Origin: Spirosoma lacussanchae
GTDB lineage: Bacteria > Bacteroidota > Bacteroidia > Cytophagales > Spirosomataceae
Direction: 5' to 3'
NCBI RefSeq assembly: GCF_005870035.1
Contig: NZ_SWJG01000003.1
Location: 186,001-250,000, forward strand
DNA: 64,000 nt
Part shown: piece by piece, positions 47,491 to 64,000 of the stretch
Numbering within the stretch: position 1 is the first letter of the stretch
Layout: each line of letters begins with the position of its first letter
Translations under genes and position numbers: made by a program
Notes under the pieces: generated by a model
What the model was told of the DNA's origin: nothing
Database searches by the model: none
Seen by the model: the letters and a program-made list of their open reading frames with translations, nothing else

Positions 47491-47706
47491 CGCAGGCAAA
47501 TAGAAGCGGGAATCGGACGGTAAAGATAAGGAAAAGAACCGCAACAGATCGGCTGGTGAAGCAGATTCGGCATAGGCTTACGGTCTGGCTGCGCGTTGTT
47601 TGGGCGTTGACAACCTATTCGCCCGATAGTGTTAACCGGTGCCTGGTTGCGCGGTATACCCGGAAACCTTATATTTTGTCGATTATCGTTCTAATGTACT
47701 GGTACA

Positions 47707-48502: not shown

Positions 48503-51500
48503 CTACCGCCCGACCGATGGCCGGGCTGGGACCGGTTGCAGCAGCAGCAGCGAGTCGTTATTACGGGCAATAGCCAGGGCTGGTCTGTTCCCGACTCGCA
48601 GTGGCAGTATGTGTCTGACCTGCCCGGTGAGGGGTGGGCCGTTTAGTCGGGTTGGCTCAAACCGGCACTTTCCTTTGTTGATTAGCACGAGGCCATAATC
48701 GGCATCGTAGCGCCCCATCTGAATGTTGCAGCCGTAAAAATTGCCGCCCATGAGCACATCGGGTAAGGCATCGCCATTGGCATCGATGATGGCCGCTGCC
48801 TGGTAGGGTGCCAGTTGGGCCAGCATCGGCAGCGGCTGAGCCGAGAACCGTCCGTTGCCATCGTTGACCAGCATCAGATTCTGGAAGGTGTTGGCCTCGA
48901 GCTGGCGGGCGTCGGCCAGGTTATCGGCGCCGATCAGGTCGGCGATGCTGGCTCGGGCAAAGTCGCGGGCGTAGATGAACTTCTTCTTGATGAACGGAAA
49001 CTGCTTCTCGGTTTCGGCTTTGTTGGCAAACAGCACCTCTTCGTTGCCCAGGTAGTAGGTCAGTAGCTGATCCGTTTTCTGGTTATGGTCAAAGTCACCC
49101 ACGTAGAGCCGGACGGGCTGCTCAATGCTGGCACGCAGGCGGCTGTTGAGCCCCAGGTTGCCCACCAGTATGTCGAGGTCGCCGTCGTTGTCGAAATCGT
49201 GGGGCAGGCTGAAGTTCCACCAGCCTTTCCGCTCGGTCAGCATCCGTTTGGTAAAGCGACTCTGCTGGTTTTCGAGCAGGCAGATGCCATCCCATTCCAG
49301 CGTCAGCAGCAGGTCGGGGTCGCGATCGGCGTCGAAATCGACCCATTCGGCCTGTTTCACCAGCCCGATCGTGGCGGCTTCCGGAGCCTGCCGGGCGGTC
49401 ATGTCGGTGAAGCGGCCGGTGCCATCGTTCCGAAGCAGATAGGAGCGGGGGGGCATGCCGTACTCGAACGGAATGGTTCGGCCGCCAATGAACAGCTCCG
49501 GCCTGCCGTCGCCGGTGAGGTCGGTAGCCCGTACGCAGGCTGCCGTGAGATAGACACCCGGAAACGCGTCGGCTTTGCGGCTGAACTGCCCGCGTCCGTC
49601 GTTCAGATACAGGCGGGGCTGGGTATACTCGGAAGTACCCCGGTACTCGTTGCCTCCGCTGGCCACTACCAGATCGGGGTCCGCGTCACCGTCGACGTCG
49701 GCGAAAACGGCGTCTACATCTTCGTAGACGCTGTCGCGTTCAAGGGCCGGCTGGCGGGTTCGGGTAAACGTACCGTTGGGTTGCTGCACGAACAGAGCGC
49801 TTTTGCCATCGCGCGCCGACCCAGCAAATAAGTCCTCGAGCCCGTCGTGGTTCACGTCGGCCACCGCCAGCGGGGGACCTTCGGCCGACATCATATGCGG
49901 AATCAGGGCTTCGCGGTCGAACTCGTTGAAGTTGTTTTCCTGATGCTGATAAATCAGGTTGGCCGGGCGGGTAATATCCGTAAAGGCCGTTGTCCGGGGC
50001 TGGCGGGGCCGGTGAGCCGCGTAGTCGAAGCGGGGCAGGCCGGGCTGGTAGCGGAGCGAGATAACCCGCTGGCTGCTGTCGGGACTAACGCGCTGGTAGC
50101 GGTTGTCGGGCCAGACAATCAGTACCGAATCGACGGTAGCCAGGCGACCCAGCCCGACCGTGAGCGGCACCTCCATACTCGACTGGAAGCCCCGCACCGG
50201 AAATTTCTCGTAGCTGAGCACCTCGCCCTGTCTGTATACCAGACACTTGGCGCCAATGGCGTTGCGGTTGGGAGCCGCGCCCGTCAGCCGGATGGTCAGC
50301 GACTGATTGCCGGGGGCGTAGGTGCTGGACAGGTTTTCGTAGACGAAGGGGTGGTCGTTGATGTTGTTGGTAACCACGTCGAGGTCGCCGTCGTTGTCGA
50401 GGTCGGCGTAGATGGCTCCGTTCGAGTAAGCAGGTTTATCATTGTCGATGGTGGCGGCCAGGTCCTGAAAACGCAGGTCGGGCTGGTTGCGGAAAAACTT
50501 GTTGGGCAGCTTGATCTCGGGCAGTTTGTCGGTCAGCGACTGATCATTTTCGGTAAACTCTTTCCGGTCCATGCGCGCCTGTATGGTCTCGTTCGATACA
50601 AACGCGATGTAGTCAATGTCGTTCATGCGCTTCGGAATCCCGTTCGAGATGAACAGGTCTTTGCGTCCGTCATTGTCGAAATCCATGAACAGGGGCGACC
50701 ATGACCAGTCGGTAGCGTGAACGCCGGCATACATGCCAATCTCCGAAAAGGTATTGTTTCTGTTATTGAGCTGGAGGTTGTTGCGTGCAAACTGGTAGTT
50801 GTAGCCCTGTCTGATTTTGTATTTGAAGATGTTGTAGGAGTCTTCGCCCTCCGACCGTTTTAGAATCTCGCGGTCGAACGGAAGCATATCGAGCGAGATG
50901 ATTTCCGGAAACGCATCGTTGTTGATGTCGGCAATGTCGATGCCCATCGAGAACTGACTGGTATGTCGGATCTGCTGGTCAAGCTCTTCCCGAAATCGTC
51001 TCGATCCGGTTTTGGGGTCGGGCTGGTTGATGTAGAGATAGTCGTTTTCGTGGAAGTCGTTCCCGATGTACAGATCCGGATAGCCATCGAAGTTTACATC
51101 GCCCGTGCCCACGCCCAGCCCGTAGCCCAGCACGTCGCTGATAATACCAGCCGCCTGCGTTACTTCTACGAAGCGGGGCAGGCCACCCGCTCCCTGCTCA
51201 ACGCTCATGTTGCGAAAGAGCCGGTCGCCGGCGGTTGGGTGGGTTTTTCCCTGGAACGCGCTCCGGAAGCCGAAGGTGCCGTTCTGGTGCAGCGAGTGGT
51301 TAAGCTGAAACATGTCCAGATCGCCGTCGCCATCGTAGTCGATGAAGGCCGCCTGGGTGCCAAGTCCCGCCAGATCGAGTCCGTACTCGCTGGCGCGTTC
51401 GTCGTATACGGGTACGCCCGCTTTGGTAATTTCGCGGCAGACAAAGAGCCGGTTGTGCCCTTTGAAGTCGCCATAGCCGCTGACCTGGCTGATGTACAGA

Positions 51501-51892
51501 TCGAGCAGCCCGTCCTGGTTGATGTCAACGACCGACACGCCATTGGCCCAGCCTTTGCCCGCATTGATACCGGTCTGGTCGGTAACGTCGGTAAACTGGA
51601 GCTGGCCTTTGTTGAGGTAGAGTCGATTGGGGCCGCTATTGGCCGTAAAACACAGATCGACCAGCCCGTCGTTGTTGAAATCGCCCGCCCCTACGCCACT
51701 GCCGTTGTAGAAGTACATGTAGCTGAAAATATTCAGTTCGTTGGTTGGCACCAGCTCGTTCGTGAAGGAAATGCCGGTACGGGCCGCGTCGAGCAGCCGG
51801 AAGGTAGCTGGCTGACGGTCGGGTTTCTGGCAGGCGAAGAAAGTCAGCGCCACCGATGCCGCCGTGAGGAGGGAACGGACGCGGTTATTCAT
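48503..51892 (-). CDS. CRTAC1-like VCBS/FG-GAP lipoprotein with ASPIC/UnbV domain (copy 2)
   Basis: An 1129-residue surface or periplasmic lipoprotein. Signal ends TFFAC (lipid Cys). The chain is full of FG-GAP/VCBS beta-propeller blades with Ca2+-binding loops of the form DxNxDG: DFNNDGLVDL, DINQDGLLDLY, DYDGDGDLDMF, repeated to the end. An ASPIC/UnbV segment lies in the middle (GLGRLATVDSVLIVWPDNRYQ). Relatives include cartilage acidic protein CRTAC1 and many Bacteroidota and Planctomycetota proteins without known function. ATG 51892 overlaps the end of the dehydrogenase small subunit by eight bases, so it is translationally coupled to it. It is the last gene of the seven-gene operon and paralogous over its whole length to the gene at 54220. 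Confidence 0.9.
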   Translation of the reverse strand: MNNRVRSLLTAASVALTFFACQKPDRQPATFRLLDAARTGISFTNELVPTNELNIFSYMYFYNGSGVGAGDFNNDGLVDLCFTANSGPNRLYLNKGQLQFTDVTDQTGINAGKGWANGVSVVDINQDGLLDLYISQVSGYGDFKGHNRLFVCREITKAGVPVYDERASEYGLDLAGLGTQAAFIDYDGDGDLDMFQLNHSLHQNGTFGFRSAFQGKTHPTAGDRLFRNMSVEQGAGGLPRFVEVTQAAGIISDVLGYGLGVGTGDVNFDGYPDLYIGNDFHENDYLYINQPDPKTGSRRFREELDQQIRHTSQFSMGIDIADINNDAFPEIISLDMLPFDREILKRSEGEDSYNIFKYKIRQGYNYQFARNNLQLNNRNNTFSEIGMYAGVHATDWSWSPLFMDFDNDGRKDLFISNGIPKRMNDIDYIAFVSNETIQARMDRKEFTENDQSLTDKLPEIKLPNKFFRNQPDLRFQDLAATIDNDKPAYSNGAIYADLDNDGDLDVVTNNINDHPFVYENLSSTYAPGNQSLTIRLTGAAPNRNAIGAKCLVYRQGEVLSYEKFPVRGFQSSMEVPLTVGLGRLATVDSVLIVWPDNRYQRVSPDSSQRVISLRYQPGLPRFDYAAHRPRQPRTTAFTDITRPANLIYQHQENNFNEFDREALIPHMMSAEGPPLAVADVNHDGLEDLFAGSARDGKSALFVQQPNGTFTRTRQPALERDSVYEDVDAVFADVDGDADPDLVVASGGNEYRGTSEYTQPRLYLNDGRGQFSRKADAFPGVYLTAACVRATDLTGDGRPELFIGGRTIPFEYGMPPRSYLLRNDGTGRFTDMTARQAPEAATIGLVKQAEWVDFDADRDPDLLLTLEWDGICLLENQQSRFTKRMLTERKGWWNFSLPHDFDNDGDLDILVGNLGLNSRLRASIEQPVRLYVGDFDHNQKTDQLLTYYLGNEEVLFANKAETEKQFPFIKKKFIYARDFARASIADLIGADNLADARQLEANTFQNLMLVNDGNGRFSAQPLPMLAQLAPYQAAAIIDANGDALPDVLMGGNFYGCNIQMGRYDADYGLVLINKGKCRFEPTRLNGPPLTGQVRHILPLRVGNRPALAIARNNDSLLLLQPVPARPSVGR

Positions 51893-52481
51893 TCCAGGCA
51901 TTCATACCCGACGCGGGCAGGGGCATACAGGCAATGAAGTTGCCCGGTAGGGGATCGTAACTCAGCATTTTTTTGCCAACCTGCTCGCTGGTGAAGTAGC
52001 CAAGCAGGGTAAGCCCTTTCAGCTGGCGGTAAAAGGCCGTTGGTGGGCTGTCTTCGAGCGTAATGCCCCAGAGTGAGAGCGGGGTTTTGGCGGCCTCATG
52101 GTCCAGCTTGAGGAGCAGCGCTTCACGTTGGGCGGGGGTGGCCTCAACGAACGAGGTGCCGTGGGCTTCTTCGGCGGCTTCGTCCAGCGCGTTCAGGCCG
52201 TCGATGAACCGACCCTGCTCTTCTTCTGACAGCAGGTCGTTCAGCATTTTGTCGATAAACTGCGGTACCCCAATGTCTTTGGCACCCGGCGTGCCGGTAC
52301 GGGGCAGTATGGTTTCGGCAATTTCGGCAATGGTATTGGCCTGGGTGTCGGTCAGAAAAACCGGTTTCCAGCTTAGGGAAACGGGTGTTGAGCAGGCTGT
52401 AAACAGCTCGCTCAGCGCTCCAATCGAGACGGAGTAGCCCATGAACAGAGCCGATTGTTTGAGTAGGTCCCGGCGGGTCAT
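51885..52481 (-). CDS. Tat-exported small subunit of a GMC dehydrogenase (gluconate 2-dehydrogenase subunit 3 family)
   Basis: A 198-residue protein with a twin-arginine signal (MTRRDLLKQSALFMG) that also ends in a lipobox-like FTAC. The mature part is the PF13618-type helical domain (DTQANTIAEIAETILPRTGTPGAKDIGVPQF). In glucose, glucoside-3- and gluconate dehydrogenases this subunit is the Tat hitch-hiker that carries the folded FAD subunit across the membrane and stabilises it. The partner here is the upstream GMC gene, which has no signal of its own; the two overlap by four bases (ATGA). It overlaps the following CRTAC1-like gene by eight bases. No cytochrome gene is present. Confidence 0.9.
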   Translation of the reverse strand: MTRRDLLKQSALFMGYSVSIGALSELFTACSTPVSLSWKPVFLTDTQANTIAEIAETILPRTGTPGAKDIGVPQFIDKMLNDLLSEEEQGRFIDGLNALDEAAEEAHGTSFVEATPAQREALLLKLDHEAAKTPLSLWGITLEDSPPTAFYRQLKGLTLLGYFTSEQVGKKMLSYDPLPGNFIACMPLPASGMNAWNE

Positions 52482-54202
52482 AAGTCGTTGCGGTTTAGCG
52501 ATCGGGTGGCGAAATCAACCGCCCGGGCCGTCAGTGCCATGTACGTAATGGATGGATTTACGCAGGACGAAGAGGTCATACAGGCGCCATCGGTCACGAA
52601 CACGTTGCTGCAACCCCACACCTGGTTGTTACCGTTTAGGATCGACGTTTTGGGGTCGCGACCCATGCGGGCCGTCCCCATCTCGTGAACGCCTACTCCC
52701 ATACCGCCCGAATGATCGAAGGTTTTGATGTTGTTGAGACCGGCGGCTTCGAGCATTTCGGCGGCATCGGCCATCATCTGTTTGCGCATAGCCCGTTCGT
52801 TGGTGCCAAAGTCGGCATCGAACACCAGCGTCGGCAGGCCCCACTGGTCTTTTTTGTCCGGGCTCAGCGTCACTTTGTTGTTGTGGTCGGGCAGTACCTC
52901 GCCGAATCCCATCAGGCCCATACCCCAGCCACCGGGTTTGAAGAGGCTGTCTTTGAAAGAGGCTCCTACGCCCGGCTGGTTTACACCCGCGCCCCAGTTG
53001 TCGCGCCCGGCGCCGGCCCCCTGGTAGTCGTAGCCGCGCAGGAAATTAGGGTTTCTGGTTTTTGCATCGAGGTTGACATAGCGCGGAATGAACAACCCGC
53101 CGGGCCGCCGTCCTTTATAATATTGATCCTCAAAACCGTCGTAGCTGCCTACAGCACCTACATGATAATGGTGGTCCATGATATTGTGCCCCAGTTCGCC
53201 ACTGTCGTTGCCAAGTCCATTGGGGAAACGCCGAGATTTGGAATTGAGCAGGATCTGGGTGGTTGCCATCGATGACGCGCAACAGAAGATCAGTTTTGCG
53301 TAAAACTCGGTCATCTCTTTCGTTTCGCGATCGACTACCCGTACGCCGGTTGCTTTGCCTGCCTTTTCATCGAAAATGATGGAATGCACTACTGAGTTGG
53401 GTCTGATGGCGAAGTGGCCGGTTCGGTTGGCGGCTGGCAGGGTGGCCGCGTTGCTGCTGAAGTAAGCCCCGTAGGGGCAGCCCCGCGCGCAGCGGTTGCG
53501 ATTCTGGCATTTGGCCCGGCCCAACTCCTGATGCCAGGGCTGGGGGTCGGTCAGGTGCGCCACCCGCCCGATGGTTACGGGGCGGTTGCTGTATTTCTTC
53601 ATGACCTCCTGTTTGAAGTGATTCTCCATACAGTTCAGCTCCATCGGTGGTAGGAAATAGCCATCGGGGAGGTGGTCGAGGCCCAGCTTCTCGCCACTGA
53701 TGCCGACAAATTTCTCGACATACGTGTACCAGGGCTCAAGGTCTTTGTAGCGGATAGGCCAGTCGATGGCAATACCTTCGCGGGCGTTGGCCGTAAAGTC
53801 GAGGTCGCTCCATCGGTAGCAGTGTTTGCCCCAGGTCAGCGATCGACCGCCGGTCTGGTTGCCCCGTATCCAGTCGAAGGGCCTCACTTCTTCGTAGGGG
53901 TCGTCTATATCTTTCGTGAAGAAATGTTTGGTGCTTTCGCCCACGAACCCACTGCGGATCTGCACGTAATAATCTGTTTGGTCCTGATGACTCAGGTTGC
54001 CCCGGTGCGCAAAGTCCCAGTGATCGTGGTTCATGGTCGGGTAGTCGTCGATGTGGTTGACGAGCCTACCTTTCTCCAGCACCAGCGTATTAAGGCCTTT
54101 TTCGCAGAGTTCTTTGGCGGCCCAGCCTCCGCTAATGCCGGACCCGATCACGATGGCATCGTACCGGTGGGTTTTGTTAACAGTGGTGTTCAGGTTAGCC
54201 AT
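52478..54202 (-). CDS. GMC-family FAD dehydrogenase (sugar/glycoside dehydrogenase type)
   Basis: A 574-residue flavoprotein. The N-terminal dinucleotide fold is IVIGSGISGGWAAKEL (residues 18-32). The catalytic pair expected in GMC enzymes is His 506 (GVGVHEMGTARMG) and Asn 549 (CVNPSITYM). Cys 232, 238 and 242 form C-x5-C-x3-C followed by P-x-G-A, the motif that binds a 3Fe-4S cluster in bacterial cytochrome-coupled FAD glucose dehydrogenases. It has no signal peptide, and export is presumably by the Tat small subunit encoded next with a four-base overlap. It should oxidise a sugar hydroxyl (C1 or C3) in the periplasm; the exact substrate is unknown. The usual cytochrome c subunit is missing from the operon. 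Confidence 0.92.
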   Translation of the reverse strand: MANLNTTVNKTHRYDAIVIGSGISGGWAAKELCEKGLNTLVLEKGRLVNHIDDYPTMNHDHWDFAHRGNLSHQDQTDYYVQIRSGFVGESTKHFFTKDIDDPYEEVRPFDWIRGNQTGGRSLTWGKHCYRWSDLDFTANAREGIAIDWPIRYKDLEPWYTYVEKFVGISGEKLGLDHLPDGYFLPPMELNCMENHFKQEVMKKYSNRPVTIGRVAHLTDPQPWHQELGRAKCQNRNRCARGCPYGAYFSSNAATLPAANRTGHFAIRPNSVVHSIIFDEKAGKATGVRVVDRETKEMTEFYAKLIFCCASSMATTQILLNSKSRRFPNGLGNDSGELGHNIMDHHYHVGAVGSYDGFEDQYYKGRRPGGLFIPRYVNLDAKTRNPNFLRGYDYQGAGAGRDNWGAGVNQPGVGASFKDSLFKPGGWGMGLMGFGEVLPDHNNKVTLSPDKKDQWGLPTLVFDADFGTNERAMRKQMMADAAEMLEAAGLNNIKTFDHSGGMGVGVHEMGTARMGRDPKTSILNGNNQVWGCSNVFVTDGACMTSSSCVNPSITYMALTARAVDFATRSLNRNDL

Positions 54203-54219
54203 GATGGTTTACGGCAGCG

Positions 54220-57200
54220 CTACTTTCTGATGCGGTACAGGGTTGGTTTCGACTGGTTGGCTAAGGTAATCAAATGTGACTGCTGGCCGATGCGTAATGA
54301 GCTGATTTGCTTGACCTCCCCGGTTTCCAGATAGCCGCTTTGCTGGGTCGGTACTACGCTGAACTGTCCCCGGCGACGGTTTAGCAGCACCAGACCCCGG
54401 CAGGCGTCCAGCCGCCCGAACTGCGGAATGAACTGGGTAAAGTTGCCGCCCAGGACCAGGTCGTTCAGGCCGTCGGCGTTTACGTCCTGCCAGGCTATGG
54501 CGTTTACGCAGGACAGCTGCACCGGCGCCGGTAACGCCCGGACTGTAAACCGGCCGGCCCCGTTATTGACCGCAATGACCGACTGGCAGTAGCTGACCGT
54601 TCGTGTCTGGCTGGTCCGCAGCACCTCCTCCGGAAACAGGTCCTGAATCGATTTGCGGGCGTAGTCGGTATGTTTCAAAATCTGGCGTTTTAAAAAAGGA
54701 AACTGGTCGGTCATTTCGCGCTTCAGAAAAACCGGCATCAGCCGATGGTCGGCGCTGGTCCGGGTCATGATCTTATCCAGCCGGTCATTTTTATCGAAGT
54801 CGTTGACAAACAGAGTTAGTGGCTGGTCGGGCGTGCCGCGCAGGGCGCTGTTCAGGCCCAGATTGCCAAGTACCAGATCCGTATCGCCATCATTGTCTAT
54901 GTCGGCGGCTTTGAGGCTGCCCCAGAAACCGGTAAACGCATCGAGTCCGGTGTCTACTTCCTTAAACATACCGCCCTGGACCGAAAACACCTTCGGAGCC
55001 ATCCAGTCGCCAGCCACGACCAGATCGGGCCGTTTGTCGCCCGTAACGTCGGTCCAGGCTGCGTCACGAACCATACCGAGCGAGGCAAACGCTGGCGCAT
55101 ACCGGGCCGATACGTCCTGGAAATACCCCGCACCGTCGTTTTGCAGGAGGTAGCTCGGTGGGGTGAGCCCGTACTCCTGCGGGTAGCTTCGGCTGCCGAC
55201 AAAGAGATCGAGGTCGCCATCGGCGTCATAGTCCACCGGGACAATGACGCTCGTATTCATACCGGTTGGCGGCAGGGCCCGGCCGTTCAGGGTAAACTGG
55301 CCGTGGCCGTCGTTCATATACAGACGGTTCATCAGCTCCGGCGAGCCAGCTGCAACCTGGTTGCCTCCGCTCCCGATGATGAGGTCCAGATCGTCGTCGT
55401 TGTCGGCGTCGAAGAACTGGGGGGCCGTATCTTCGAAGGAGGCAAGCCGGGTAAAAACGGCCTGGGATGAGGGCTGAAATCCGCTGGCGGTCTGCCGGTA
55501 AAGCTGACCAGGCTGCCCTTTGGCTCCGCCGATATAGAGGTCGTCGCGCCCGTCGCCGTCAACATCGCCGATGGCGGCTTTGGGACCCTCGGTCGAGAGC
55601 CGGGCGGGGATGTTTCGTTCGTTGTAAAAATCGTCGTACGCGTCTTCACGGTGCGCGACGAAGGGCGACTGGACCCGTTCGAGCAGCGCGGGGCCGGGGA
55701 GCTGGGGCTGGGCAGGTGGCGGGTTCTGGGCGTCGCGAATGGACAGGGTAAGGAGTTGGTCGGGCTTAGGCGCTTTGACCAGGCTGACGCGACCGTCGTA
55801 CCACCGGATGCGGAGCGAGTCGGGCTGGCCAATGGTGCCGAGGCCCAGCGTCTGCACGTATTCGGTGCTGGACTGAAAACCGCGGGCCGGTGCCAGGTAG
55901 CGGCTGATAACCTGCCCCCGGTGCATCAGTTCGATGGTTGAGCCGATGGCAAAGGTGTTGAGGCCCTCGCCTACGAGTTTTACTTTGAGATAGCGATGCG
56001 TCGGGGTTTTTCGCTCGGCGTGGTTCTGGTAAATAAGGCAGGGCTGGTTAACGGTATTGACTACCAGGTCGAGGTCACCGTCGTTGTCGAGATCGGCGTA
56101 GGCGGCTCCGTTCGAGAACGACGGGTCGCCGAGGCCCATCTGCCGGGCATTTTCGGTAAACGTCAGGTTTCCGTTGTTATGAAAAAAGGTATTCGGAAGA
56201 GGAGTGGAGGGCATGTGGCGCACAACCTCGTCGAACTCTTTCTTCTTGCCGGACATAGCCTTGGTCTGAGCCAGGTCGTTGGCGAAGAAATCGATAAAGT
56301 CCTGGTCGATAACGTCGTGGTAAATGCCGTTGCAAACGTAGATGTCGTTGTAGCCGTCGTTATCGGCGTCGAACAACAGCGCGCCCCAGCTCCAGTCGCT
56401 GGCAGCCACGTCGGCGTAGTACGCAATCTCGCTGAAGGTGCCGTCCTGGTTATTTAGCTGCAGGCAGTTTTGCTGGTACTGGTTGTAAAAGCCGCGCTCT
56501 TTTTTGAGGTTGAAGAGATAATGGTTCTCGAACGAGGAGGTTGTTTTCTTCCGGAATTCATCGCGGGGCAGCATCTCGGTCGTGAACAGTTCGGGATAGC
56601 CGTCATTGTTAATGTCGCCCAGATCGGCGCCCATCGACGCGATGCTGAGGTGATTCATCCGGCTTTCGATGTCTTCGCGGAAGGTGCCGTCCTGATTGTT
56701 GATGTAGAGGTAATCTTTCTCAAAAAAGTCGTTGGAAATATATATGTCGGGCCAGCTGTCGTTGTTGACATCGCCGATGGTCACGCCCAGCCCAAACCCG
56801 ATCAGGCTGCTGTAAATACCCGTTTTTTCACTGACATCGACAAAAAGGGGCGCGTTTGGGGCAGACAGATTGGGTGAGTTGCCCCGTTTATTCACCGCCC
56901 CTACGCCCCCGCGTTCTACCGTCATGTTGCGCAGGAGTCGGTCACCACCGCCTTTCAGAAAATCCTTGACGGGCCAGTCTTTAGCCCGTAGCGTTCGGTT
57001 GTTGGCAAAGTCGAGGGTGTTAACCGGAATAAAGCTGTTGTTGAGAATATAGCAGTCGAGATCGCCATCACGGTCGTAGTCGAAAAAGGCCGCGTGGGTA
57101 GTATAGCCGTTATCGTCGAGTCCGTACTGCCGGGCCGATTCGGTAAAGGTTGGTACGCCGTTTTTCAGACCGTTGTTGATGTAGAGTTCGTTATGTTGGC

Positions 57201-57654
57201 CAATGCCTTTCTGGTAGCCCGCGTAGCAGACGTAAATGTCGAGCCAACCGTCGGCGTTGATATCGACCATAACAACGCCAGTGCCCCATTTACCCGTACT
57301 GCCTACGCCTGCCCGGTCGGTAATATCAGTAAACTGCCAATTGCCCGTACCGGGTTTGGTCTGGTTCAGGTACAGTTTGTTGGTACCCATGTTGGCGGTG
57401 AAGTAAACATCGGGCAGGCCATCATTATTAAGGTCGCCCACGGCTACGCCCCCGCCATTGTAAAAGTTGCGGTAGTTAAAAATGTTGAAATCTTCGCGGT
57501 TGACCACCTTGTTCTCAAACGAGATGCCGATGCGGTCGTTATCCATCCGCTCGAACAGGGCTTTGTCGGCCGGGCTCGAGCAGGCGAAGAGGCTGGTCAG
57601 CAGGGCGAGTACAACAGCCGGTACCAAAGCCGGTCGAAATAGGGTTGAATCCAC
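54220..57654 (-). CDS. CRTAC1-like VCBS/FG-GAP lipoprotein with ASPIC/UnbV domain (copy 1)
   Basis: An 1144-residue lipoprotein beginning with GTG at 57654; no ATG lies before the signal, which ends LTSLFAC. It is a series of FG-GAP/VCBS blades with acidic Ca2+ loops (DLNNDGLPDVYF, DINADGWLDIYVC, DYDRDGDLDCYIL, DVDGDGRDDLYIG) and a central ASPIC/UnbV segment (TLGLGTIGQPDSLRIRWYDGR). Two beta-propellers flanking the ASPIC region are likely. It lies 41 bases after the small lipoprotein gene and 17 before the GMC gene. With its paralogue at 48503 it brackets the dehydrogenase pair, so the two may form a surface complex with SusCD or with the enzyme (inference). No catalytic site recognised. Confidence 0.9.
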   Translation of the reverse strand: MDSTLFRPALVPAVVLALLTSLFACSSPADKALFERMDNDRIGISFENKVVNREDFNIFNYRNFYNGGGVAVGDLNNDGLPDVYFTANMGTNKLYLNQTKPGTGNWQFTDITDRAGVGSTGKWGTGVVMVDINADGWLDIYVCYAGYQKGIGQHNELYINNGLKNGVPTFTESARQYGLDDNGYTTHAAFFDYDRDGDLDCYILNNSFIPVNTLDFANNRTLRAKDWPVKDFLKGGGDRLLRNMTVERGGVGAVNKRGNSPNLSAPNAPLFVDVSEKTGIYSSLIGFGLGVTIGDVNNDSWPDIYISNDFFEKDYLYINNQDGTFREDIESRMNHLSIASMGADLGDINNDGYPELFTTEMLPRDEFRKKTTSSFENHYLFNLKKERGFYNQYQQNCLQLNNQDGTFSEIAYYADVAASDWSWGALLFDADNDGYNDIYVCNGIYHDVIDQDFIDFFANDLAQTKAMSGKKKEFDEVVRHMPSTPLPNTFFHNNGNLTFTENARQMGLGDPSFSNGAAYADLDNDGDLDLVVNTVNQPCLIYQNHAERKTPTHRYLKVKLVGEGLNTFAIGSTIELMHRGQVISRYLAPARGFQSSTEYVQTLGLGTIGQPDSLRIRWYDGRVSLVKAPKPDQLLTLSIRDAQNPPPAQPQLPGPALLERVQSPFVAHREDAYDDFYNERNIPARLSTEGPKAAIGDVDGDGRDDLYIGGAKGQPGQLYRQTASGFQPSSQAVFTRLASFEDTAPQFFDADNDDDLDLIIGSGGNQVAAGSPELMNRLYMNDGHGQFTLNGRALPPTGMNTSVIVPVDYDADGDLDLFVGSRSYPQEYGLTPPSYLLQNDGAGYFQDVSARYAPAFASLGMVRDAAWTDVTGDKRPDLVVAGDWMAPKVFSVQGGMFKEVDTGLDAFTGFWGSLKAADIDNDGDTDLVLGNLGLNSALRGTPDQPLTLFVNDFDKNDRLDKIMTRTSADHRLMPVFLKREMTDQFPFLKRQILKHTDYARKSIQDLFPEEVLRTSQTRTVSYCQSVIAVNNGAGRFTVRALPAPVQLSCVNAIAWQDVNADGLNDLVLGGNFTQFIPQFGRLDACRGLVLLNRRRGQFSVVPTQQSGYLETGEVKQISSLRIGQQSHLITLANQSKPTLYRIRK

Positions 57655-57695
57655 GCGATTGCGTCGTTACGGTGTCTGTCAAAAGGGGAAAGGGC

Positions 57696-58253
57696 TCAGA
57701 AGAACACGTCTTTTCGGGTAACGTGCTGAAGTCGGAGGCTGGGGTTTCGGATTACGATCAACCCCTGAACAGTAATCCATTTGGTAGGTACCCGCTGAAA
57801 TTCATACTTACCCGCCTTGCCGGTCAGGCGCATGACCAGTTTATCGTCCGTCAGGGTTTCAACGGTAATCGTGCCGTCGGTCATCAGGTAGCCTTCGCCC
57901 CGCCGGTTGGCTTTGTCGATCAACCGACCGATCATCACGCTGCCCGCCACCTGGTTGTCGAGGAATACCTGCCGTTTGATGGGTTTGTCTTTGTACCAGT
58001 CGCTGCCGCTGAACGCCACGATGATGTTGCTTTCGAACTGATCGAAGAGGTTGAGCCGCATAAACGTATCATACACATCGACCTGCCCGCTGAACTGGCT
58101 CTCGGCCGGGTAAAAATCGGCGCCATCGAGCTGTATCCGAACCCGGGCCTGACCCGGTTTAAGCGATGCATATAACTCATCGACAGTGGCTTCTGGGCGG
58201 CAGCCCGCCAGCCATATGAATAACAGGCCAATGAGCAGAAAAGAAAGTTTCAT
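57696..58253 (-). CDS. Lipoprotein of unknown function downstream of susD
   Basis: A 185-residue lipoprotein: ATG 58253 starts LSFLLIGLLFIWLAGC, lipid Cys at residue 18. A longer frame upstream would place the signal internally and run into the susD hairpin, so it is rejected. The mature part alternates hydrophobic residues (ARVRIQLDGADFYPAE, NIIVAFSGSDWYKD, DKLVMRLTGKAGKYEFQRV), suggesting a beta-sandwich of 160 residues. Family unknown to me. It occupies the place where many SusCD loci encode an extra surface glycan-binding lipoprotein (SusE/SusF position), so a ligand-binding role is a fair inference. It is separated from susD by a 14-bp perfect hairpin. Confidence 0.8.
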   Translation of the reverse strand: MKLSFLLIGLLFIWLAGCRPEATVDELYASLKPGQARVRIQLDGADFYPAESQFSGQVDVYDTFMRLNLFDQFESNIIVAFSGSDWYKDKPIKRQVFLDNQVAGSVMIGRLIDKANRRGEGYLMTDGTITVETLTDDKLVMRLTGKAGKYEFQRVPTKWITVQGLIVIRNPSLRLQHVTRKDVFF

Positions 58254-58286
58254 GTTACGATGGATACGGAAGTACCAGAACAAAAT

Positions 58287-58318
58287 ATCCCCAAAACGCC
58301 CAATGGCGTTTTGGGGAT
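58287..58318 (-). repeat. Perfect hairpin between susD and the next lipoprotein gene
   Basis: ATCCCCAAAACGCC and GGCGTTTTGGGGAT form a 14-bp perfect stem with a CAAT loop. It begins 18 bases past the susD stop on the minus strand. No strong U-run follows, so it may stabilise the susCD part of the mRNA or attenuate transcription rather than end it. Confidence 0.65.
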
Positions 58319-58336
58319 GCATAAACAGGCTGTCAA

Positions 58337-59830
58337 TCAATAGCCTGGGTTCTGTTTCAGGTTCGGGTTCGACACCGTAGCGTCAGACGGAATGGGGAAC
58401 AGTACCGTGTGCGCGCTCTTGTTGTCAACACCGGTGCCGGTCAGGAATTTGCCGAAACGAACTTCTACCGTCCGCTTGCCGCCTTCCCAGTAAGTTTCTC
58501 GACCGATCTCGTCGAACATGGCATCTTCGGTCAGCGATGTCAGCGCCGACGCGCCCCGCAGTTTGCGGAGGTCGTTTACCTGCGCCAATGCCGCGGCTGC
58601 ATTGCCCGACCGAAGCAGGGCCTCGGCTTTCATTAGGTACGCATCGCCGTAGCGGGCAATGATGTACTTGTTGGCATCGGCCGGGTGGTACTTAATAACC
58701 CGGATTCCTTTGTCGGTCGGCGTACCGGCCAGCGTTACGTCGCGGGTGAACTGCAGCGGCTTTTGCGTGCGCGAGTCGACGATAGCCGCGCCCTTGTCGT
58801 TATACTGCTGCCCGATCAGGAAGCCACGGCCAATACCTGAGAACTCTTTCCCGTCTCTCTTAGCCGCTACACCTTTCCGGACATCGCTCGTCTCGAACTT
58901 GTCGTAGAAGTCGGCCAGCGTAGCAAAACCGTTCCAGCCCGAAGGGTTCTGGTCGTAGTGGAGCGTCATATACCAGCGGTTCTGCGGAGATCCCTGCGCG
59001 CCGGTCAGAATGATCTCGTTGGCAGCCGTTTTGGTGAAGTTGCTGAAATAATCGGGGTTCAGCTTAAAGCCAGCGGCAGTAATAGCGTCAACGGCCTTAA
59101 CCACGTTGTCCATGTCGGCTTTGTCGAACGTATAGGGGCCTTCGGCTTTCGCAGATTTGAACACGGCTTTGTTCAGGTACAGTTTGGCCAGCAGGTAGTT
59201 GGCCGCAGCTTTCGTAGCGGTCGGGTTGTCGGACGAAGCCGGGTTGGCTTCGGTCAGTGCCGGGAGGGCTTCGGTCAGGTCTTTCAGAATAAAGTCGAAA
59301 GCCTCAGACCGGCTTTTCACCTTCGGGTTGTCGTTTACCCCTTCAGTAGCTTCGCGGAACGGAACCTGGCCCCAATAGTCCATGACGTAGAACATGTTCC
59401 AGGCCCGGAGAAACTTGGCCTGGGCAGCCTGCGCGGGCGTTGGGCTGGAGGCCAGAATCTGTGTACACTTGAACACCTGCGAGTTCAGGTTATTCCAGGC
59501 GTTCAGGTTCCAGGAGTGGGTAGCATCCCAGGTGTGCTGATCGAGCGTGCGCCATACGCCATTATCGCCCCAGTCGACACCGCGCGTGGGCGGAATCATC
59601 TCGGCCGTTGTGTGCTCACCCAGGGCGTATATATTAGCCTGATCGGAAAACTGGTTGCCCAGATCGTTGTAAACCGCCTGGAGGGACTGCGCTACGTCGA
59701 CGGATTTGAACCCGCCGGCCGACTTAACGACCAGCGAGTCTTTCTCGACCACATTCAGGTCTGTGCACGACGACAGCACAGCCAGTACAGCGGTCATACT
59801 CAATACCTTGCTTGTTATATGCGTATTCAT
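58337..59830 (-). CDS. SusD/RagB-family nutrient-binding lipoprotein
   Basis: A 497-residue SusD-type outer-membrane lipoprotein. N-terminus is a lipoprotein signal (VLSMTAVLAVLSSC). The helical TPR-like core is recognised by FLRAWNMFYVMDYWGQVPFRE and by AANYLLAKLYLNKAVFKS; the C-terminal SusD domain ends with ETYWEGGKRTVEVRFGKF and LFPIPSDATVSNPNLKQNPGY, the standard ending. It caps the SusC barrel on the cell surface and binds the imported ligand. It follows susC by 27 bases in the same operon. Ligand cannot be read; the operon enzymes point to an oxidisable sugar or glycoside. Confidence 0.95.
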   Translation of the reverse strand: MNTHITSKVLSMTAVLAVLSSCTDLNVVEKDSLVVKSAGGFKSVDVAQSLQAVYNDLGNQFSDQANIYALGEHTTAEMIPPTRGVDWGDNGVWRTLDQHTWDATHSWNLNAWNNLNSQVFKCTQILASSPTPAQAAQAKFLRAWNMFYVMDYWGQVPFREATEGVNDNPKVKSRSEAFDFILKDLTEALPALTEANPASSDNPTATKAAANYLLAKLYLNKAVFKSAKAEGPYTFDKADMDNVVKAVDAITAAGFKLNPDYFSNFTKTAANEIILTGAQGSPQNRWYMTLHYDQNPSGWNGFATLADFYDKFETSDVRKGVAAKRDGKEFSGIGRGFLIGQQYNDKGAAIVDSRTQKPLQFTRDVTLAGTPTDKGIRVIKYHPADANKYIIARYGDAYLMKAEALLRSGNAAAALAQVNDLRKLRGASALTSLTEDAMFDEIGRETYWEGGKRTVEVRFGKFLTGTGVDNKSAHTVLFPIPSDATVSNPNLKQNPGY

Positions 59831-59857
59831 GAGTCTTTTTTAAACTAATTGATTGAA

Positions 59858-62800
59858 TTAGAATGCGATATTGGCACCCAGAGTCCAGGTACGAGCGCGG
59901 GGATAGGCTGTGTAATCGATACCCAGCGATGGTACACCGTTCAGCGATTTGTTGGTATTTACCTCAGGGTCCTGGCCCGTATAATTGGTAATGACGAAGA
60001 GGTTCTGACCGGTCAGGAACAGCCGCAGGTTTGAGAGGGTTTTGTTACCCGTGTTAAAACGGTAGCCCAGGCTCAGGTTCTGCAGGCGAACGAACGATCC
60101 GTTTTCGAGGAAGCGGGTCGATACGTCAGGTGCGTTGAAGGGTCCTTCTTTCAGGCTAGGTACATCGCGGGTTACGTTGCGGCCGTTGTTGAAAGCACCC
60201 TTGGTGAAGAATGCGTTGGCATTGTTATTATACACCCAGTTGCCAAATACCCCGTTGAAGAAGAAGCTCAGGTTCCAGTTGCCGTAGTGCAGGTTGTTGG
60301 TCAGGCCACCCGTAAAGGTCGGCAGTGGGCTTTTGCCGATGAACTTTTGCACGTCGCCACCCGTATAGATGGTGTTGCCTGCTTCATCGTAACCGCCAAA
60401 CTCGCGCAGGAAGAACGCAAACAACGGCTGATCATTGGCGATCCGCTGGGCAAAAGCGCCCGTCAGACCCTGGCCGCTGATGCCGCCGGTATTGATCAGA
60501 CCTCCGTAATTTTTCACGATGTTCTTGTTGTAGGCTGCGTTGAACTGTACATCCCAGCCAAACTTGGGTTTGTCGACAATGCCGACGTTCAGGCCGAGTT
60601 CAACCCCGCTGTTGATTACGTTGGCGTCGAGGTTTCTCCAGACGAATGGCGTCAGAGCTGGTTGCGCCGATGTAACCTGAATCAGCAGGTCTTTGGTGTC
60701 TTTCCGGTAGAAATCGATCGAACCCGTTACGCGGCTACCGGCAATACCGAAGTCGACACCGGCGTTGAACTGGGCCGTAGATTCCCATTTCAGATCCGGG
60801 TTGGGAAACGATACGTCACTCAGGCCACCGCCGTTGATGTTATCCGACGATGCGTTGAAACCCCAGTCGCTGAACCGCTGACGCTGATCGTAGAGGTTGT
60901 GCGGAATCGACTGGTTACCCGTTACGCCGTAGCCTAACCGAACTTTCAGGTCGGAGAAGACCGCTTTCGGAATGAATGACTCTTCGCCCAACCGGTAGGC
61001 AACGGCCGCCGAAGGGAAATAACCGTATTTGTTACCGCCACCAAAGCGGGTCGAGCCATCGGCCCGCAGCGTGGCCGTCGTGATCAGCTTGCCAATGGTC
61101 AGGTTTACCCGGCCAAAGTACGACTGCAGTTCATCTTTGGTGTAGGCTGTGTTTTGAATCAGGCTACCAAAGCCCTTCGAGTTGTCGGCAGAGGCCGCGT
61201 TGTTGATCATCAGATCCAGATTGCCTGTCCGGAAATTGGTTGCAGTTGCCCGTTGGAAGGTATACTCAAAGCTCTGGTACGAGTAACCCAGCAGCGCGTT
61301 CAGGCTGATGTTCTTGTTGATCTCCTTGTCGTAGGTGAAGTAGTTCTCCATCAGATTGTTATTAATCTGAATGTCGGTCAGGAACAGGCGACCCACGTTC
61401 TGAATATCCTGATAGACGAGATCTTTAGAGAAAGCTGCTTTCCGGGACGACATTGACTTGTCGAAACCCAGTACCGTCTTAAATTTCAAGCCGGTTATGA
61501 TTTCATATTCGGCATTGAGGTTACCCAGTGACCGCAGTGTTTTGGTATTGTCGCGCGACAGGTCGAGCAGGGCCTGTGGGTTCGGCTCGGCTACGTTGCT
61601 CGACTGATAGAGCGTGCCATCCGGATTGTAAACCGACAGCGTTGGGTTCGATTTCAGAATACCCGCCAGCAGGTCACCCTGGTAGCCGGCGTTGTCGGTA
61701 ACCGGGACGTTGCCATCCTGGGTTTCCGATACCGTGGCCTGGATACCGATGTTCAGCTTGTTATTGATGAACTTCTTGTTGCCATTGAACGTAGCGCTCA
61801 GGCGGTTGAGGGAGCTTTTCTGCATGATACCCTGCTGGTCGAGGTAGCCAAGCGAAAAGCGGTAGTTGCCCGTTCCGTCACCGCCACCGTAGGCGAGGTT
61901 ATGCTGGTTGGTCAGACCCGTCCGGAACAGTACGTCCTGCCAGTCGGTGCGTGCACCCCGATCCTGAGAAGGTTGCAGTTTGGCATACTCGTCGGGGCTC
62001 AGCAAATCATAGCGTTTGGTAATGTTGCTGATCCCGAACGAAGGCGAATATTCGAGGCTGCCTTTGCCCGACTTTCCTTTTTTTGTCGTGATCAGAACAA
62101 CGCCGTTGGCACCGCGCGATCCGTAGATGGCCGTAGCCGACGCATCTTTCAGGATGTCGATGCTCTGAATATCTTCCGGGTTCAGGAAGTTGAGCGGGTT
62201 ACGGGGCGAGGAGCTACCGATCCCCGAGTTCTGACCATCCGACTGGGTATTGTCACCACTGAGGGGTACGCCGTCAACGACGAAGAGTGGGTTATTACCG
62301 TTCCGTACAGATGAGGTACCCCGGATACGGATGTTAATACCACCGCCGGGCTCCCCGCTGTTTTGCGTAATGGCCACCCCGGGTACCCGACCCTGCATGA
62401 GTTGCTCAGGCGATGTTATAATTCCTTTGTTAAAGTCTTTGGTGCCAATTACGTTCACCGCACCTGTAGCGTCCTTCTTTTTCACCGAACCATAACCGAT
62501 AACGACGACCTCGTTCAGGGTCTGATTATCTTCGGTCAGCGACACGTTAATAACGCTCTGATTACCCACCGTTACTTCCCGCGATTCATAGCCGACAAAA
62601 CTGAAGACCAGTACGGCCCGATCCGGCACGGCAATGCGGTAGTTACCAGACGCGTCTGAGTTGGTCCCGCGTTGGGAACCTTTAACCGCAATGCTTACGC
62701 CCGGCATGGCCGTTCCATTGGCGTCCTTCACCACACCCGACACCTGGCGATCCTGCGCCCATGTGCTAACTGTTATAGCAAAAAATAGAGTGGTAAGCAG

Positions 62801-62869
62801 GAGCCTGCTCACAAAAGTAGTAAGTCGGTAACAGCTGATCCGGCTTGCCACTGCGTAACTGTGCATCAT
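59858..62869 (-). CDS. SusC/RagA-family TonB-linked outer-membrane transporter
   Basis: A SusC-type receptor of 1003 residues. ATG 62869 (MMHSYAVAS) is preferred; 17 further codons upstream are possible. Order: signal peptide (LLLTTLFFAITVSTWAQ), CarboxypepD_reg-like domain (QVSGVVKDANGTAMPGVSIA), TonB-box region with the SusC hallmark LNEVVVIGYGSVKKKD, plug (GVAITQNSGEPGGGINIRIR, ILKDASATAIYGSRGANGV) and a 22-strand barrel ending ARTWTLGANIAF. With SusD it imports oligomeric substrates using TonB energy. It is the first gene of the seven-gene minus-strand operon. No ECF sigma or anti-sigma gene lies next to it, so regulation is not evident. Confidence 0.95.
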   Translation of the reverse strand: MMHSYAVASRISCYRLTTFVSRLLLTTLFFAITVSTWAQDRQVSGVVKDANGTAMPGVSIAVKGSQRGTNSDASGNYRIAVPDRAVLVFSFVGYESREVTVGNQSVINVSLTEDNQTLNEVVVIGYGSVKKKDATGAVNVIGTKDFNKGIITSPEQLMQGRVPGVAITQNSGEPGGGINIRIRGTSSVRNGNNPLFVVDGVPLSGDNTQSDGQNSGIGSSSPRNPLNFLNPEDIQSIDILKDASATAIYGSRGANGVVLITTKKGKSGKGSLEYSPSFGISNITKRYDLLSPDEYAKLQPSQDRGARTDWQDVLFRTGLTNQHNLAYGGGDGTGNYRFSLGYLDQQGIMQKSSLNRLSATFNGNKKFINNKLNIGIQATVSETQDGNVPVTDNAGYQGDLLAGILKSNPTLSVYNPDGTLYQSSNVAEPNPQALLDLSRDNTKTLRSLGNLNAEYEIITGLKFKTVLGFDKSMSSRKAAFSKDLVYQDIQNVGRLFLTDIQINNNLMENYFTYDKEINKNISLNALLGYSYQSFEYTFQRATATNFRTGNLDLMINNAASADNSKGFGSLIQNTAYTKDELQSYFGRVNLTIGKLITTATLRADGSTRFGGGNKYGYFPSAAVAYRLGEESFIPKAVFSDLKVRLGYGVTGNQSIPHNLYDQRQRFSDWGFNASSDNINGGGLSDVSFPNPDLKWESTAQFNAGVDFGIAGSRVTGSIDFYRKDTKDLLIQVTSAQPALTPFVWRNLDANVINSGVELGLNVGIVDKPKFGWDVQFNAAYNKNIVKNYGGLINTGGISGQGLTGAFAQRIANDQPLFAFFLREFGGYDEAGNTIYTGGDVQKFIGKSPLPTFTGGLTNNLHYGNWNLSFFFNGVFGNWVYNNNANAFFTKGAFNNGRNVTRDVPSLKEGPFNAPDVSTRFLENGSFVRLQNLSLGYRFNTGNKTLSNLRLFLTGQNLFVITNYTGQDPEVNTNKSLNGVPSLGIDYTAYPRARTWTLGANIAF

Positions 62870-63755: not shown

Positions 63756-64000
63756 ATGATGGACAAATCCTACACAGGTGACCGTTTCGGCGGTTACGTA
63801 GGTCAGGTTGGGAGCGCTCAACCCCAGCCATTTCGTAAGAAAGCTTGCTACGGCTTTTTATCGTTACTGGCCATGGTACTACTGCTGGGAAACCAGCTGG
63901 CGTGGGCGCAGGGCACAACCCTGACGGGTAAGGTGGTTGACAAATCGGGTATTGGCCTGCCCGGTGTAACCGTACAAATTAAAGGCGCTAACCGGGGCAC
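63756..64000 (+). CDS. SusC-like TonB receptor, N-terminal part (runs off the window)
   Basis: The first 81 codons are present. Sequence starts MMDKSYTGDRFGGYVG, with a long hydrophilic N-terminus of about 32 residues, a signal helix (GFLSLLAMVLLLGNQLAWAQ), then a CarboxypepD_reg-like domain (GTTLTGKVVDKSGIGLPGVT, IKGANRGT), the usual start of SusC/RagA receptors. The long N-region before the signal is common in large Bacteroidota receptors. It is divergent from the susC gene at 59858 and has its own promoter-like boxes. Whether a SusD follows cannot be seen. Confidence 0.88.
   Translation, partial: MMDKSYTGDRFGGYVGQVGSAQPQPFRKKACYGFLSLLAMVLLLGNQLAWAQGTTLTGKVVDKSGIGLPGVTVQIKGANRG

Follow-up and report, generated by a model that had tools for sequence, protein, structure and literature searches.

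We analysed a 64-kb window of DNA lying within contig C17 of the 6.33-Mb genome of Spirosoma lacussanchae. Seven consecutive minus-strand genes in this window encode a SusCD-type importer, three further lipoproteins and a two-subunit dehydrogenase; the start of a second operon lies divergent from them. The features, with their window positions, are:

59858..62869, minus strand: SusC-type TonB-dependent transporter (TIGR04056, 698 bits; Plug and CarbopepD_reg_2 domains, no STN domain listed)
58337..59830, minus strand: SusD-type surface lipoprotein (PF07980, PF14322)
57696..58253, minus strand: LIP, a small lipoprotein neighbouring SusCD (no Pfam or NCBIfam model)
54220..57654, minus strand: CRT1 (CRTa), a CRTAC1-like FG-GAP/ASPIC lipoprotein (PF13517, PF07593)
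52478..54202, minus strand: GMC FAD dehydrogenase (PF05199, PF00732; no signal peptide visible)
51885..52481, minus strand: Tat-type small subunit of the Gluconate_2-dh3 family (PF13618, 132.6 bits)
48503..51892, minus strand: CRT2 (CRTb), a second CRTAC1-like lipoprotein (PF13517, PF07593)
63756..64000, plus strand: start (SusC) of the divergent twin operon, the remainder of which lies beyond the window (L033, L193)

With inner starts for SusC (62869), LIP (58253) and CRT2 (51892), the ORF coordinates give intergenic distances of 27, 83, 41 and 17 bases, with 4 and 8 bases shared at the two overlaps, exactly the order and spacing that a preliminary description of this DNA had reported for the seven minus-strand genes. 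Pfam and NCBIfam likewise agree with its assignments of SusC, SusD, the two CRTAC1-like proteins, GMC and the small subunit, LIP being recognised as a lipoprotein by eye. Lipoprotein-type signals were also seen by eye at the N-termini of SusD, CRT1 and CRT2. The N-terminus of the small subunit, MTRRDLLK, is a Tat-type motif; by eye, M-x-RR opens 29 of 31 related small subunits (L159 and L177 are without it), and a stricter regular expression for the motif counted 9 of the 31. Both CRT proteins have the CRTAC1-like make-up of FG-GAP repeats plus UnbV_ASPIC (Pfam), and CRT1 matches cartilage acidic protein 1 (PDB 9etn) at 2.2e-7.

The run possesses the adjacent SusC and SusD homologues of a polysaccharide utilisation locus, but not the carbohydrate-cleaving enzyme expected in the same operon, as a GH65 is found only in the divergent twin. 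In fact, the Pfam and NCBIfam searches placed none of the seven proteins in a glycoside hydrolase, polysaccharide lyase, other hydrolase or regulator family, which bears out the earlier remark that the run lacks all of these, and a motif search detected no CxxCH haem motif in any of the seven. Several CRTAC1-like genes of S. lacussanchae adjoin SusC or SusD genes, suggesting that these lipoproteins are regular SusCD partners in this species. The genome contains 11 UnbV_ASPIC matches (contigs C17, C19, C21, C22, C18, C5 and C1).

An alignment of LIP, searched against 222 Spirosomataceae genomes and 390 genomes sampled from the order, matched 68 of the former and 32 of the latter, 30 of these 32 belonging to the family and two being marginal. 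Within the genus, the LIP-bearing genomes are S. lacussanchae, G201, which is almost certainly S. sordidisoli and is so named below, and a third genome, G200. All non-own matches were fetched, giving 68 related loci, a denominator that retains two weak matches outside a SusCD context (L143, E 5.8e-7; L144, E 2.3e-6, which yielded no LIP ORF) and one short stretch without SusC (L131). The order SusC-SusD-LIP occurs in 65 of the 68 loci, and a same-strand CRT gene after these three also in 65 of the 68, several of the fetched stretches being cut off at 20 kb or where the contig ends, so that later genes may be missed. In a FastTree phylogeny of 128 CRTAC1-like proteins, which has several long branches, a CRT1 clade (57 rows) and a CRT2 clade (48 rows) each received a support of 100.

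Because the two CRT proteins of the window fall into these separate clades, and in view of the 65/68 counts, the conserved unit is SusC-SusD-LIP-CRT1-CRT2, and the dehydrogenase is not part of this core. The preliminary description had regarded the operon as built around the dehydrogenase, a view that does not survive the comparison: what is conserved is SusC-SusD-lipoprotein-CRTAC1 without the GMC pair. Conservation of the seven-gene order in relatives, which that description had proposed as a check, proved to be confined to one of the 68 related loci, that of S. sordidisoli, where all seven genes stand in the same order as in S. lacussanchae (L076, L078). G200 has the core without the GMC pair and without CRT2, and the pair is dispensable in so far as G200 does without it; S. 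lacussanchae and S. sordidisoli versus G200 thus form a natural with/without set. An ORF of 1004 amino acids at window positions 44530-47544 resembles, by eye, an FAD-linked oxidase with iron-sulphur motifs, and G200 has an ORF like it immediately after CRT1, in the same orientation (L077).

LIP itself gave no Pfam or NCBIfam match and no PDB match under E 0.7. Its AlphaFold model (pLDDT 83.5) is beta-rich and barrel-like, with no convincing relative among solved structures. The family nearly always directly follows SusC-SusD and, in the order sample, is essentially restricted to Spirosomataceae. What the survey reveals is a conserved importer core that includes a lipoprotein family without a name and two constant classes of CRTAC1-like protein.

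The clade membership of the two CRTAC1-like proteins also allows the GMC pair to be placed in a slot between CRT1 and CRT2, whose contents we counted over the 53 loci having both genes in the run. The slot is empty in 40 loci, with CRT1 and CRT2 within 25 bases of each other or overlapping in 37 of the 40. It holds a GH31-DUF4249-TonB receptor module in nine loci, from three genera only (six in g30, two in g9, one in g12), a second SusC-SusD-CRT0 set in three, and the GMC/small-subunit pair in one (S. sordidisoli), matching the window. In G048, the source of the closest CRT2 relative, nothing occupies the slot. Elsewhere among relatives, a TonB receptor-DUF4249 pair or a GH97 lies between LIP and CRT1, and in some the GH31-DUF4249-TonB receptor module is found after CRT2 in convergent orientation. 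Among the 68 related loci we saw no relative passing from GH31 to GMC in the slot, and a GH31 search of S. lacussanchae (G000), G200 and G201, run with no positive control, returned nothing at E <= 1e-30. It is conceivable, albeit doubtful, that the slot is an exchangeable enzyme bay for a hydrolase or an oxidative module, and that the importer was switched there from hydrolytic to 3-keto alpha-glucan use. If so, polysaccharide utilisation loci could replace hydrolysis by oxidation with the importer unchanged, and such a swap would escape annotation based on glycoside hydrolases.

A search of the 222 family genomes with the GMC protein identified 34 genomes with a match of at least 64% identity, the point at which the group was cut (856 bits, the next match scoring 803); six of the 36 genomes of the genus are included. 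In the GMC tree, whose outgroup branches are very long, three members at 64-66% identity (G131, G132 and G047) group with paralogues. Of the 32 loci fetched, 31 have a Gluconate_2-dh3 gene after GMC. Only two of these 32 stretches from other genomes contained a labelled SusC or SusD close to the pair, one on the same strand 468 bases downstream (L174) and one convergent (L163). The neighbours vary, and include an M61 or tricorn peptidase, a rhamnose mutarotase with oxidoreductases, and a radical SAM protein with a PF06439 protein. Since the neighbours differ and SusC and SusD are seldom labelled among them, the pair does not belong to this operon; it is a cassette also found elsewhere, in differing contexts.

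The GMC protein of the window groups with those of genus g10 (support 100) and not with the pairs of its own genus (G184, G189, G203, G213), and the 4-base overlap between GMC and small subunit is common to the window and three of the four g10 pairs. Taken together, this grouping and the common overlap point to acquisition of the pair by transfer, or to its having been left by differential loss. Between S. lacussanchae and S. sordidisoli, at a dS of 0.5-0.6, dN/dS ranges from 0.013 to 0.121 over all seven genes and is 0.046 for GMC and 0.063 for the small subunit; the pair is under purifying selection. Across the 222 family genomes, LIP is held by 24 of the 34 genomes with the GMC group versus 44 of the 188 without it (Fisher 1.9e-7), or by 21 of 31 upon removal of G131, G132 and G047. 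Stratified by genus, a test that does not use these three, the association has an odds ratio of 10.2 (z 3.2, five informative genera), a value in which relatedness within genera remains.

The nearest solved relatives of the GMC protein are the large subunit of fructose dehydrogenase (132.6 bits) and, in addition, those of glucose dehydrogenases; we found no characterised enzyme within the window's own GMC group. Fructose dehydrogenase attacks its monosaccharide substrate at C5. Both points tell against the glycoside 3-dehydrogenase reading favoured below. The likeness to fructose dehydrogenase (PDB 7w2j, 8k6k) extends to an aligned His and Asn near the C-terminus of the large subunit, but the match amounts to only 132 bits and the run encodes no cytochrome subunit.

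Lac-type enzymes are made up of a GMC protein and a Gluconate_2-dh3 small subunit, their third component being a cytochrome c subunit. Both the GMC large subunit and the Tat-type small subunit are present in the run; no cytochrome c subunit is encoded with the pair, all seven proteins being free of CxxCH, and 2 of the 32 related loci have an ORF with this motif at most three ORFs away from GMC. Work on Caulobacter and Pedobacter (PMC9007349) describes LacABC-type lactose/glycoside 3-dehydrogenases acting with a DUF1080 hydrolase. This has a counterpart in four same-genus relatives, where the dehydrogenase is linked to a PF06439 hydrolase. Unlike LacABC, the run of S. lacussanchae has no haem-motif protein, the hydrolase lies outside the operon, and the pair sits inside a SusCD operon.

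In the four relatives (G184, G189, G203 and G213) the gene order is radical SAM (YgiQ-type, PF08497)-GMC-small subunit-PF06439, with 32-81 bases separating the small subunit from the 3-keto-disaccharide hydrolase, an assignment made by running Pfam on L158, the other three hydrolases matching this one at 439-501 bits. G187 has the radical SAM-PF06439 site without the GMC pair. Homologues of the hydrolase (E <= 1e-80) occur in all 36 genomes of the genus, S. lacussanchae included; given this genus-wide distribution, the hydrolase is not tied to the GMC pair, which is present in six of the 36. The preliminary description had suggested that 3-keto-glycosides are made here and cleaved by enzymes encoded elsewhere, and had recommended looking for the latter. 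Such a search was productive, yielding 14 PF06439 matches in the S. lacussanchae genome, one of which (C1:1043874-1044572) is 75% identical to the GMC-linked hydrolase, in a gene neighbourhood that differs from the GMC-linked site. Hence, the suggestion gains from the four linked pairs and loses from the contrast between 36 and six genomes and from the differing neighbourhood. Because of the linkage in four relatives, together with the published LacABC-DUF1080 genetics, formation of a 3-keto-glycoside and its cleavage by enzymes encoded elsewhere would be our leading guess.

As to the substrate, the divergent twin operon (C17:249756 onward) begins 886 bases upstream from where SusC starts, has its first 245 bases in the window, and comprises SusC-SusD-CRT0-CRT1'-CRT2'-PAP2-243-aa protein-GH65, three of its products being CRTAC1-like. 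The GH65 matches the kojibiose hydrolase FjGH65A of Flavobacterium johnsoniae with 786 bits; counted by eye, the catalytic acid and base glutamates and the kojibiose-contacting Trp-Glu pair align, provided that the numbering of the paper runs three ahead of that of the chain. The twin operon was seen in S. sordidisoli up to a cut-off GH65 start (G201, L194) and in G200, where it was fetched in part (L195), as far as PAP2, the last CRT reading as two ORFs.

GH31 or GH97 is found in 28 of the 68 related stretches, and neither in 40. One GH97 that was tested resembles SusB (758 bits), and one GH31 is near an oligosaccharide alpha-glucosyltransferase (512 bits) and alpha-glucosidases. Since GH97, GH31 and GH65 accompany the core or the twin operon, the substrate may be an alpha-glucoside. 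The FjDexUL locus of F. johnsoniae combines GH66, GH31, GH97 and GH65 for branched dextran (PMC10316084). Sus/FjDexUL-type loci have in common with ours the SusC-SusD pair and lipoproteins, and also the GH31 and GH97 of the relatives and the GH65 of the twin; unlike them, the seven-gene run contains neither a hydrolase nor a SusR-like regulator, and adds LIP, the CRTAC1-like proteins and the GMC dehydrogenase.

The reading that we favour, tentatively and at somewhat short of an even chance, is that the operon imports alpha-glucosides and that its enzyme slot has acquired what is probably a glycoside 3-dehydrogenase, which suggests that the food sugar is oxidised before cutting. An importer for alpha-linked gluco-oligosaccharides would have gained the GMC and Tat small-subunit cassette between CRT1 and CRT2. 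SusCD, acting with LIP and the CRT lipoproteins, would capture and import the oligosaccharide, and the folded GMC protein, exported to the periplasm by Tat along with its small subunit, would oxidise a sugar hydroxyl, most likely that at C3, and pass the electrons to a carrier presumably encoded elsewhere. PF06439-type hydrolases with genes elsewhere in the genome might then cleave the resulting 3-keto-glycoside, working beside the putative GH65 alpha-1,2-glucosidase of the twin operon.

The varied contexts of the pair, its tree position with g10 rather than with the pairs of its own genus, and its absence from G200 would also fit a mobile two-gene cassette that simply landed in an expressed operon and whose substrate is unrelated to SusCD import. 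We consider this unlikely, as the pair has been kept in two species separated by a dS of 0.5-0.6, with overlaps of 4 and 8 bases and a dN/dS of about 0.05, and as the GMC group is associated with the LIP core even when stratified by genus. Alternatively, the pair could oxidise a released monosaccharide and deliver electrons to the respiratory chain, with no cleavage of 3-keto-glycosides. The large subunits of fructose dehydrogenase and of glucose dehydrogenases are indeed the nearest solved structures; these matches, though, reach only about 130 bits, and a 3-keto-disaccharide hydrolase follows four related pairs, which makes periplasmic respiration of this kind rather improbable.

Some SusCD pairs import ligands other than glycans, so the core might import something else altogether, with the dehydrogenase acting on the imported ligand. 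This would accord with the 40 of 68 stretches in which neither GH31 nor GH97 occurs, and with the fact that we found no role for bacterial CRTAC1-like proteins in print; however, enzymes of alpha-glucosidase type (GH31, GH97 and GH65) occur repeatedly within or next to the core or in the twin, and we regard a non-sugar ligand as very unlikely.

Two additional clusters in the S. lacussanchae genome deserve mention. Around the 75%-identical hydrolase, two PF06439 genes lie close together on opposite strands, one of them being that match (L185, 7804-10686; C1:1041804-1044686). The other, at about 9700-12751 of L034 (C17:297737 region) and distinct from the run, has the order small subunit-GMC-AP_endonuc_2 (xylose isomerase-like), and its make-up would fit a 3-keto sugar route.
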